From positions 434,001-498,000 of the forward strand of contig NZ_JAXIVS010000003.1 in NCBI RefSeq assembly GCF_034259325.1: a stretch of 64,000 bases of DNA, read 5' to 3'. The notes beneath the pieces were generated by a model. The model saw only the letters and a program-made list of their open reading frames with translations, was not told the origin of the DNA and searched no databases. Position numbers and translations under genes: made by a program. This stretch comes from Hyalangium ruber. GTDB taxonomy: Bacteria > Myxococcota > Myxococcia > Myxococcales > Myxococcaceae. Shown here in pieces: positions 2,242 to 6,645 of this stretch (position 1 is its first letter; each line of letters starts with the position of its first letter).

Positions 2242-3051
2242 TCACCTCGACAACAGGTCGCTCCCCAGCTTCAGGACCAGCGCCGCCACCACGACGAGCA
2301 CCACCTTGCGCACCAGCTTGTCCCCACCCTTCACGGTGAGGTGGGCGCCGATCCACGCGCCGGTGAACTGGGCCACGGCCATGGGCAGGGCCACCTTCCA
2401 CAACACCACGCCCTTCCACGCGAAGAGCGCCACGGAGGCGATGTTGGAGGCGAAGTTGACCACCTTGGCGTCCGCGGACGCGCGCATCAGCCCATGCCCC
2501 AGCAGGGTGGAGAACGCGACGATGAGGAAGGTGCCCGTCCCCGGACCGAAGAAGCCGTCGTACGCGCCAATCACCAGGGCGACCACGCCTCCGAGCACCC
2601 GCATCCTCGACAGGGGCGGCTCCGGCCGCTCCCCCGGCGGAGGCCCTCTGCGGAAGGCGAGGAAAGCCGCCACGGCGATGAGCAGCACGAGCACCAGCGG
2701 CTTGAGCACCTCGGGCTTCACCCACAGCACCAGCCGCGCTCCCGCGAATGCCCCCGCGAGCCCCAAGGGGAACGTCACCCACGCCAGCTTCCCGCTCACC
2801 AGCCCCGCGCGAGAGAAGCGCACCAGCGCGGCAAAGGCTCCGAAGACGGACTGGCCCTTGTTGGTGCCCAGCGCCACGTGCGGTGGCAGCCCGGTCGCCA
2901 GGAGCATGGGCAGGGTGATGAGCCCTCCCCCGCCAGCGATGGCATCCACGCCGCCCGCGATCAGCGCCGCGAGGCACAGCAGGACAATGTCGAGGGAGGA
3001 GACATCCAAGGCAGGGGCCCACCTCCGCGCGGGCGGCGCCTCCACTACCAT
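2242..3051 (-). CDS. TSUP-family (TauE/SafE) membrane permease
   Basis: Integral inner-membrane protein of 269 residues with about eight hydrophobic segments and the two-fold repeated layout of the TSUP (sulfite/organosulfonate exporter, TauE/SafE) family. The N-terminal repeat has GGVDAIAGGGGLITLP and the ALGTNKGQSVFG motif; the second has the matching GAYDGFFGPGTGTFL and NFASNIASVALF motifs. Substrates of the family are sulfite, sulfoacetate and other small anions; the one here is unknown. It is divergent from the cysteine-repeat gene at 3130, with 78 bases between them to hold both promoters. Confidence 0.88.
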   Translation of the reverse strand: MVVEAPPARRWAPALDVSSLDIVLLCLAALIAGGVDAIAGGGGLITLPMLLATGLPPHVALGTNKGQSVFGAFAALVRFSRAGLVSGKLAWVTFPLGLAGAFAGARLVLWVKPEVLKPLVLVLLIAVAAFLAFRRGPPPGERPEPPLSRMRVLGGVVALVIGAYDGFFGPGTGTFLIVAFSTLLGHGLMRASADAKVVNFASNIASVALFAWKGVVLWKVALPMAVAQFTGAWIGAHLTVKGGDKLVRKVVLVVVAALVLKLGSDLLSR

Positions 3052-3129
3052 GCCCTTCCGCCGACGTCGCGCTTGCGCCCCAGGCCCACCTGAGCGTCAA
3101 TCCCGGATCCGCTGCCCTCCGAGGTCCCC

Positions 3130-3945
3130 GTGCCCGTTTCGCTCGTCCCTCTTGTCCTCGTCCTGCTGTCCCAGGCGCCTCGGGCCTCGTCGGACCCCTC
3201 GGTGCCCACCTGCCGTAACATCGATGGTCAGGTGGCCTGTGGCTTTGCCTGCAAGTCGGACGGCATGCGCGCCCGGTGCGCCAAGACTCCGCAGGGCATC
3301 TGCCAGGTGCTCGACGGGCAGGTGGTGTGCTTCGACCCGCCCGCCTATGTCGTCCGGGCCTATGGCGGCGCGCTGCCCCAGCCCGAGTGTACGGTCTCCG
3401 AGGGGCAGGTGGCGTGCGGCTACTCCTGCGCCTCGTACTTCGGCAAGGTGAACTGCGCGCGCACGCCCGCGGGCGTGTGCCGGGGCCGCGGGCAGACCGT
3501 GGAGTGCGTGGACCCTCCCGCCTCGGTGTTCGCCATCTACGGCCGGGAGACGCCCAAGGTCGAGTGCAAGACCCAGGGGATGGACTTCGCCTGCGGCTAT
3601 AAATGTGCCGCCAGCTCCGAGGGCGTGAAGTGCGCCGCCACCCCTTTCGGCATCTGCAAGGCGGAGGGCGGGCGCGTCACCTGCTTCGACCCCTCTCCGG
3701 GGGCCGTCTGCGCCTTCGGGCGCAACCTGCCCGCCCCCCAGTGCCGCTCCAATGACGGCACCGCGGCCTGTGGCTACGCGTGCGCGACGGCCTACTCCCG
3801 ATCCGCCTGCGCCTCGACGCCCAAGGGGGTGTGCAAGGTATTCGACAGTGAAGTCCATTGCTTCGACCCTCCCACCACCCTCCAGGGTGAGGACTCCTGC
3901 ATGGCCCTCATCGGCCTGGCGGCGATGGAAGGGGCCCAGCCCTGA
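3130..3945 (+). CDS. Secreted protein of four 59-residue six-cysteine repeats
   Basis: 271 residues, GTG start, signal peptide (PVSLVPLVLVLLSQAPRAS). The mature protein is four tandem repeats with an exact 59-residue period: cysteines at 28, 37, 41, 50, 58, 67; 87, 96, 100, 109, 117, 126; 146, 155, 159, 168, 176, 185; and 205, 214, 218, 227, 235, 244. Each repeat therefore reads C-x8-C-x3-C-x8-C-x7-C-x8-C, with recurring VACGYxC, CAxTPxGxC and a closing CFDPP (CVDPP in repeat 2, CFDPS in repeat 3). Two further cysteines, near 194 and 259, sit outside the pattern. I do not recognise a named family. An extracytoplasmic disulfide-bonded module is the natural reading. It lies divergently from the TSUP permease and ahead of the GYF-PATAN-J protein. 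Confidence 0.8.
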   Translation: MPVSLVPLVLVLLSQAPRASSDPSVPTCRNIDGQVACGFACKSDGMRARCAKTPQGICQVLDGQVVCFDPPAYVVRAYGGALPQPECTVSEGQVACGYSCASYFGKVNCARTPAGVCRGRGQTVECVDPPASVFAIYGRETPKVECKTQGMDFACGYKCAASSEGVKCAATPFGICKAEGGRVTCFDPSPGAVCAFGRNLPAPQCRSNDGTAACGYACATAYSRSACASTPKGVCKVFDSEVHCFDPPTTLQGEDSCMALIGLAAMEGAQP

Positions 3946-4020: not shown

Positions 4021-6645
4021 ATGGCGGAGGGAGAAGTCCGGCAGTACTTCGTCCGCAACGACAAGGGCGTTGTGTGGGGCCCGCTGACCCTGGCGACCAT
4101 CGAGCTGTTGATCGACAACGGCGTCATCCAGGGTCGGCTGCAGGTGTCCGAGGATGGGCTTCAGTTCGCCTTCCCGGGGCGGTTTCCGCATCTGCGTGAC
4201 GCGTTCCCCCGCGAGATGTGGGGGGACGTCGTGGCCCCGGGTGCAACCGTCCCCGTGGCCAGGGCGGAGCTTCCCCCGGAGATGGGGCGGCCGACCGCCG
4301 CCGCCGCGCCTCCAGTCACGGCAACCCCAGGGGCAGCGCCCATGGCGGGCCCGGGAGCCGTGGCTCAGGCCAACGCGCCCCGACCCGCGCCCGGCACCGT
4401 TCCTCAAGCCGGCGCCCCCAGGCCCGTCGTCCCCGGCGCTGTTCCCCAGGCCGGCGCCCCAGCAGGAGCCCCCGGAGCCCGCCCCGCCGGGGTGCCCCCG
4501 GGCGCCATGCCGAGCAACCCCTCCGGTAGCTTCCGTCCCGTCGCGCCTCCGGGCGCGGCGCAGCGTCCGCCCGGGCCCGCCGGTGTAGCTCCGGGCGCAC
4601 CCGCCGCCCCCGGAGCCCCAACCGCCGGTACCGCGCCCAGGCCTGCCCCAGGCGTGGCGCCTTCGGGCGCTCACGCCGCAGTGGGGCCTGGAGCCGCCTC
4701 GCCGGCACGCCCCTCGGGACCAGTGCCCACGGTGGGGCCCGCTGCCGCCACTTCCCCCGCCGCGACGCCCCCTCCTGTCGCTACTCCGGAGTCCCTGGCG
4801 CCGCCGCCCGCGCAGGGCTCGCTCGAACAGAGCTCGCCCATCCAGCTCTACGGCCGCATCTCCGCGGGCACGCACACGGGCCTGCTCACCCTGAGGCTCG
4901 CCGACCGCGCCATCCAGATCCACTTCCGCAAGGGCAGCCCCGAGTTCGTCGACTCCTCGCACCCCGAGGACGCGCTCGGCACGGTGCTCACCCAGGCGAA
5001 GCTGCTCTCCGCCGAGCAGCTCCAGCAGGCCGAGGGCGCCCGCGCGCGCTTCGGAGGCGATCTGCTCGCCGCCCTCTTCGGCATGGGGCTGCTCCAGCCC
5101 GCCAGCGCCTTCAATCACCTCTCCCAGCGCGCCCTCTCCCTCCTCCACAAGGGCCTGCGCGCCGAGTCCGGCACCTTCACCTACGAGGCGAAGGACCTGC
5201 CCGCCGCCAAGGCGATGCCGCTGGGCAACCGCTGGGCCGTGCTGAGCGACCAGGTCCGCCGCATCGCCTCTCCGGACCTCAAGCGGCGCCTGCAGCCCGT
5301 GCTCAACCTGCCCATCATGAAGGCAGGTGGCATGGTGGCCGCGAGCGACCTGCGCCTCACCCCGCATGAGGTGCGCGTGCTCACCGTCATCGACGGCGTG
5401 CGCTCCATCGCGCAGCTCCTCACGGACTTCCCCCAGGACACCGACCACATCCTGCGCCTGGCGTTCCTGCTGAAGGAGCTGGAAGGAGTCTCCTTCGCGG
5501 CCGTCGCCCAGCGCGCGGCACCACCCCCGCCTGCCGCCGCTGCCCCGAATCCGCCTCCGGCCGCCGCTGCTGCTCCCAGGCCCGCCGCTCCCAACCCGGC
5601 GCCTGCTGCCGCCCCGGCCGCCGCTGCCCCCAGGCCCGCCGCGCCCAACCCGGCACCCGCTGCCGCCCCGGCCGCTGCTCCCAGGCCCGCCGCTCCTGCG
5701 CCCGCAGCGGCCCCAGCCGCCGCCCGGCCCGCGGCTCCCAACCCAGCGCCCGCCGCAGCCGCCGCTCCCACCGCACCCACCCGGCCCGCGGCGGCTCCGA
5801 ACCCCGCCCCCGCCGCTAGCCCCGCGAAGCCCGCCGCGCCCGTGCTCAAGCCGGCGGCTCCCGGAGCAGCGCCCGCTCCGGCCGCGCCCACGGCCCCGAA
5901 GCCCGCCGCACCGCAGCCGAGCGCTCCGGCAGCCTCCGCGGCTCCCGCCAGCGCAGCAGGGCCGGACGACCTCCCCACCCTGCGGCAGACGGCGGCCACC
6001 CTGAAGGGCCAGAACCACTTCGATCGGCTGGGCCTCCCGCAGCAGACGGACGCGGGCGCGGTGAAGGGCGCCTACTTCAAGCTGGCCCGGCTGTACCACC
6101 CGGACACACTGCCACCCAACGCGCCGCCGGAGCTGGAGAAGCTCAAGGCGGAGATCTTCGGCTACATCGGCGATGCCTACCGCACGCTCACGGACGACAA
6201 GAGCCGGGCCGATTACATCGAAACGCTCAAGGGGGGCGCGGAGGGTCAGGAAGAGGTGGACGTGGTGGCCATCCTCCAGGCGGAGGAGCGCTTCAAGAAG
6301 GGCACCATCTTCATGAAGGCGCGCAAGTACGCCGAGGCGGTGGCCATCTTCGACGAGGCCATCCAGCTCAACGGGGCGGAGGCCGAGTTCCACGCCTGGC
6401 GCGCCTACGCCCGCTTCTGCGCGGCGCCGGACAAGAAGGCCATCCAGCCCGAGGTGTTCCGAGAGCTCCAGCAGGCCATCAAGAAGAACGAGCGCTGCGC
6501 TCCGGCGCACTACTTCATGGGCCTCATGGCCAAGACGCTGGGGGACGCCACCGGGGCCCTCAAGCACTTCAAGCGCACCGTGGAGCTTCAGCCAGATCAC
6601 ATCGATGCGCAGCGAGAAGTGCGCATGGCGGCCCAGAAGAAGTAG
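4021..6645 (+). CDS. GYF_2 - PATAN (DUF4388) - J-domain - TPR mosaic protein
   Basis: An 874-residue cytosolic protein of several modules. Residues 7-50 look like a GYF_2 domain ([22 protein letters not shown]). Residues 70-265 are a Pro/Ala/Gly linker. Residues about 270-490 hold a DUF4388/PATAN-type region ([30 protein letters not shown]). A second Pro/Ala linker of near-repeats runs 497-646. A J-domain follows at about 664-738 with the diagnostic HPD at 693-695, then TPR-like helices to the end. An HPD implies it stimulates an Hsp70 ATPase; TPR and GYF domains bind proteins, so it is probably a client-recruiting cochaperone or scaffold. PATAN domains are common in myxobacterial signalling proteins. 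Partner unknown. Confidence 0.85.

Follow-up and report, generated by a model that had tools for sequence, protein, structure and literature searches.

The locus and the layout of its product

The open reading frame at positions 3130-3945 on the plus strand of the window (the whole 64-kb stretch of DNA analyzed here) encodes a protein of 271 amino acids from a GTG start, with GAGG, a plausible ribosome-binding site, 5 nt upstream (3121..3124, + strand). In genome coordinates, the locus of this four-module protein is C3:437130-437942. Divergent from it lies a gene for a TauE/SafE-family transporter (2242..3051, − strand; PF01925, E=4.5e-49), and 75 nt downstream, in the same direction, is one for a DUF4388-DnaJ-TPR protein, assigned with Pfam (4021..6645, + strand); synteny marks both as conserved neighbors. 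The DUF4388-DnaJ-TPR protein itself contains long Pro/Ala-rich low-complexity stretches. It is possible that its gene forms an operon with the open reading frame upstream; scans for sigma-70 promoters and terminators found none.

The product starts with a predicted signal peptide (3130..3192, + strand), the hydrophobic stretch MPVSLVPLVLVLLSQAPRASS, which on inspection of the translation by eye has neither a lipobox cysteine nor a charged n-region; the same reading revealed neither a lipobox nor a C-terminal anchor in the protein. Similar hydrophobic leaders, also without n-region charge, recur in relatives. The rest, all on the plus strand, is a regular array. Module 1 (C28-C67; 3211..3330), with three C-x8-C hairpins, is the most conserved whole module. 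It is followed by linker 1 (19 aa; 3331..3387), with FDPP and a predicted short helix; module 2 (C87-C126; 3388..3507); linker 2 (19 aa; 3508..3564), with VDPP and again a predicted short helix; module 3 (C146-C185; 3565..3684), which evolves fastest; linker 3 (19 aa; 3685..3741), which bears an extra cysteine, C194 (3709-3711); and module 4 (C205-C244; 3742..3861), whose third hairpin, CKVFDSEVHC, is the best conserved in the protein. A C-terminal tail with another extra cysteine, C257 (3898-3900), and the stop codon complete the frame (3862..3945).

The original prediction of four 59-residue six-cysteine modules in one register, without an indel, was borne out. The modules start at C28, C87, C146, and C205, each with cysteine gaps of 8-3-8-7-8 and separated from the next by 19 residues, so that the register is C-x8-C-x3-C-x8-C-x7-C-x8-C-x19. 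At an offset of +59, all 18 possible Cys-to-Cys matches are present, while the best of 20,000 shuffles gave 11, even with the period left free and every value from 20 to 79 tried. The count of 24 cysteines holds for the modules but not for the protein, which has 26, as the full series of gaps makes clear: 8 3 8 7 8, 19, 8 3 8 7 8, 19, 8 3 8 7 8, 8 (C) 10, 8 3 8 7 8, 12 (C). The extra pair, C194 and C257, is invariant in 20 non-redundant orthologues and has counterparts in a more distant group of four-module proteins (L024-L027), and we therefore imagine that a thirteenth disulfide, C194-C257, probably connects linker 3 with the C-terminal tail. With only 34-42% protein identity and 46-58% DNA identity between them, the modules are old copies rather than the outcome of a recent tandem expansion.

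A predicted hairpin ladder cut into beads

Across the family, the module reads C-x8-C-G-[YF]-x-C-x8-C-A-x-[TS]-P-x-G-x-C-x8-C-[FW]-D-P, and its three segments resemble one another. Column by column, the hairpins are alike to a degree reached by few permutations (1/2000 for hairpins 1 and 2, 23/2000 for 2 and 3, and 0/2000 for 1 and 3). In simple members (L031, L032, L051, and L073), the three are plainly one decapeptide, C-x3-Y-G-x-[VI]-x-C, and more distant members form uninterrupted ladders, spaced 9-3-9-7-9-3-9-7-9 in L078 and L079 and 8-3-8-7-8-3-8 in L075, L076, and L083. Given the likeness of the three segments and these continuous ladders, the basic repeat unit is the predicted ten-residue C-x8-C hairpin rather than the 59-mer. 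The window protein is thus a ladder chopped into three-hairpin beads, parted by a short-helix linker starting FDPP. The idea of a fold repeated as a string of 59-residue modules therefore stands for the string but not for the unit. Hairpin length is nearly always 8 or 9 across the family, rarely 7 or 10; the linkers of 3 and 7 residues kept their size in every array parsed, and length changes fall in the hairpins and in the linker between modules.

Structure prediction is consistent with this anatomy. The best of five AlphaFold models of module pairs (pLDDT 59.5 to 85) was built from 18 aligned module pairs and reached a pLDDT of 85.0. Its predicted strand pairs are 6-10/13-17, 20-23/26-29, 36-40/43-47, 65-69/72-76, 79-82/85-89, and 95-99/102-106; each C-x8-C is modeled as a beta-hairpin with a two-residue turn and directly opposed cysteines, and the FDPP linker residues as a short helix. 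A full-length model from 6 sequences had low confidence (pLDDT 46.6), and its secondary structure agrees with that of the two-module model. Cross-strand disulfides favor non-hydrogen-bonded positions, and by counting in the model, the opposed cysteines occupy such positions. Because the cysteines face each other in the modeled hairpins, one disulfide per hairpin, and hence pairing within the module, is most likely; as to whether the cysteines would pair within a module, the question raised with the original prediction, the strand registers thus point to yes. We could not derive the pairs from joint loss of cysteines, since no real case of a lost cysteine was found among about 290 family modules.

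The original prediction could name no disulfide domain for the module, and none emerged. When Pfam, NCBIfam, PHROGs, PADLOC, and PDB sequences were searched with the protein, with simpler relatives of it, and with a profile of the module, no significant match to the module came up, and no described cysteine-rich domain matched. A fold search of the PDB with the two-module model at pLDDT 85 returned no Foldseek match at E<4 and no VIA match at Z>=2, a miss that does not prove a new fold, and predicted viral structures gave no fold match either.

Distribution, selection, and relatives

A profile of 59 modules (alignment A1; threshold E<=0.001) matched 89 of the 195 Myxococcota genomes searched, 81 in the family of the window genome and 8 outside it; two of these outer matches (G173 and G178) are weak, and stops interrupt them. 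Strong matches are found mainly in large-genome members of the family. A single scan of genome contigs with the whole protein recovered close relatives only. An origin from a phage or other mobile element was considered and rejected, as searches of phages, plasmids, and viral contigs yielded no relatives; a single weak plasmid match falls inside a sarcosine oxidase gene.

Orthologues are 54-77% identical and, wherever the flanking sequence sufficed, adjoin the TauE gene and a DUF1877 gene; the DnaJ/DUF4388/TPR gene, a YhbY gene, a ceramidase-like gene, and purF are usually nearby. Since these neighbors are mostly housekeeping genes, the context is uninformative on function. Two records call for comment. 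In the orthologue of genome G130, module 1 is out of frame with modules 2-4 and the rest is intact, which is a frameshift or an assembly error. Another record is titled Comamonas sp. KCTC 72670, a name that is probably wrong, given that its locus carries Myxococcaceae genes in the order of the window at 56-82% identity.

High GC content and long overlapping reading frames make false ORFs common in this window, and one might ask whether the frame is spurious, or a tandem repeat of mechanical origin whose product is not under selection. We find this hardly credible. The dN/dS against close relatives is 0.22-0.42, and that of two relatives against each other is 0.16; the gene order around orthologues is kept across many genera, the cysteines are invariant, and the modules are too diverged in DNA for a recent tandem repeat. 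The dN/dS values, conserved neighbors, and widespread family orthologues establish that 3130-3945 is a real gene under purifying selection. Together with the invariant cysteines and the empty library and fold searches, this selection also supports the suggestion that a selected fold is repeated as a string.

Within orthologues of the window protein, copy number is fixed at four, and per-column entropy places conservation in module 1 and the third hairpin of module 4 (mean of 0.43 bits, compared to 1.5-1.8 for the hairpins of module 3). This pattern suggests specific contacts at both ends rather than a purely passive spacer. In the module tree, many forks of which are weak, modules 1, 2, and 4 of this clade are each united on one side of a branch and module 3 is split over two; module order appears to be fixed across these orthologues. 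Modules of simple members tend to cluster with others of their own protein, the pattern that recent internal duplication would give.

The module also occurs in other settings. A three-module paralogue lies elsewhere in the same genome (G000:C16:15561-16148) and in several relatives, in a context that is not conserved. In these proteins (L010, L028, and L035-L039), a single additional cysteine is conserved beyond the last module (SLLHCDH or SLVQCAH), leaving an odd count in the module region, and this residue could form an interchain disulfide. In genome G005, of the same family, the module is fused to the C terminus of two exported-looking tetratricopeptide-repeat proteins (L077 and L086, the L086 fusion read by inspection), hinting at a role in the envelope. 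In other Myxococcota families, the four-hairpin ladder of L075, L076, and L083 stands at the end of lipoprotein-like proteins with a common N-terminal motif (CNYDGSYEMGMNEA...); Pfam gave no match.

Possible function and comparison with known systems

What might such a string of beads do? The original prediction suggested binding or inhibition, and both are still conjecture. We give about an even chance to a rigid, multivalent binding or scaffold protein that acts outside the cytoplasm. As we envision it, the hydrophobic leader would direct export, leaving the protein periplasmic, on the surface, or extracellular. Each bead would consist of three C-x8-C beta-hairpins, every one closed by its own cross-strand disulfide and joined to the next by the fixed 3-residue (GYx) and 7-residue (AxTPxGx) linkers; four beads would be strung on 19-residue linkers starting [FV]DP, with their short helix. 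Conserved Gly, Pro, and Cys would keep the frame, the product would be protease resistant, and the hairpin faces of successive beads might touch a cell-surface, matrix, or prey ligand. None of the fusion partners or neighbors of the module points to a ligand.

Two other readings are ranked behind this one. The protein could be a passive structural part of the envelope, extracellular matrix, or spore coat, valued for toughness rather than for specific binding. The predominance of structural residues (Cys, Gly, Pro, or aromatic) at almost every conserved position speaks for such a role, as does the concentration of strong matches in large-genome members of the family; we nonetheless consider it doubtful, given that conservation is much higher in module 1 and in the last hairpin of module 4 than elsewhere in the protein and that the orthologues hold to four copies without fluctuation. 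Less likely still is a multi-headed protease inhibitor, in which the C4-x7-C5 loop of each bead, A-x-T-P-x-G-x, would be a canonical reactive loop guarding the cell against proteases of its own or of prey. Inhibitors are common among small tandem six-cysteine domains, and tandem disulfide inhibitors offer an analogue; moreover, the residues beside the fixed T-P differ from bead to bead and, for modules 3 and 4, also from one orthologue to another (entropy of 2.0-2.4 bits). However, the core of the loop, T-P-x-G, hardly varies in the family as a whole, the average rate of change in the loop is no higher than in the hairpins, and no Pfam inhibitor family, pacifastin, or PDB fold was matched.

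Extending the binding or scaffold reading, one can picture a new disulfide fold family, a C-x8-C hairpin ladder with alternating 3- and 7-residue linkers, which grew from a single ten-residue hairpin and in social myxobacteria was cut into three-hairpin beads to give a multivalent cell-surface or prey-recognition protein; we put this forward tentatively, as a speculation that is unlikely to hold. Whatever its role, a strictly conserved disulfide module that is present in most large genomes of the family has neither a family entry nor a structure. Its nested anatomy, from ten-residue hairpin to three-hairpin bead to four-bead string, is a clear example of how a disulfide repeat protein can be put together, and its decapeptide might find use as a stable scaffold for display.

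Among catalogued domains, DUF6464 (PF20065) and DUF4124 (PF13511) show a weak likeness, with alignments that recur near the CGYxC and hairpin part of the module and fall far below the curated cutoffs (about 10 versus 25 bits and 17.4 versus 22 bits, respectively). Like the pacifastin light-chain domain (PF05375), the module is small, tandem, and six-cysteine, with beta-hairpin content. Pacifastin has a C-N-x-C-x-C core, however, which the spacing of the module lacks. The best Pacifastin_I match in the genome (E=0.32) lies elsewhere, with none at the locus of this protein, and neither Foldseek nor VIA-align matched the two-module model to pacifastin. The domain has been reported from myxobacteria by structure search (PMC13388995).

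TIGR04201, the cysteine repeat of the myxobacterial cell-surface recognition protein TraA (PMC3325183), and TIGR02232 (myxo_disulf_rpt) are also tandem cysteine-rich repeats of exported myxobacterial proteins, but their cysteine spacing differs from that of the window protein. The genome contains 42 matches to TIGR02232 and, down to E=0.9, 57 to TIGR04201, none of them at this locus; for TIGR02232, hmmscan gave no match either.

Finally, secreted cysteine-rich repeat proteins (SCREPs), reported from bacteria and eukaryotes alike, carry a small cysteine-rich domain in tandem; the term is an architectural umbrella rather than a homologous family, and those characterized are toxins of animals, built of ICK or Kazal domains (PMC6262176). 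In none of the searches made was the module here either ICK or Kazal. The window protein resembles SCREPs in being a pure domain repeat, [AAAA], with four tandem copies of one cysteine pattern, and, like its relatives, it has by eye a hydrophobic leader that may direct secretion. By family, it would seem to belong to nothing catalogued; by architecture, it would fit among the SCREPs.
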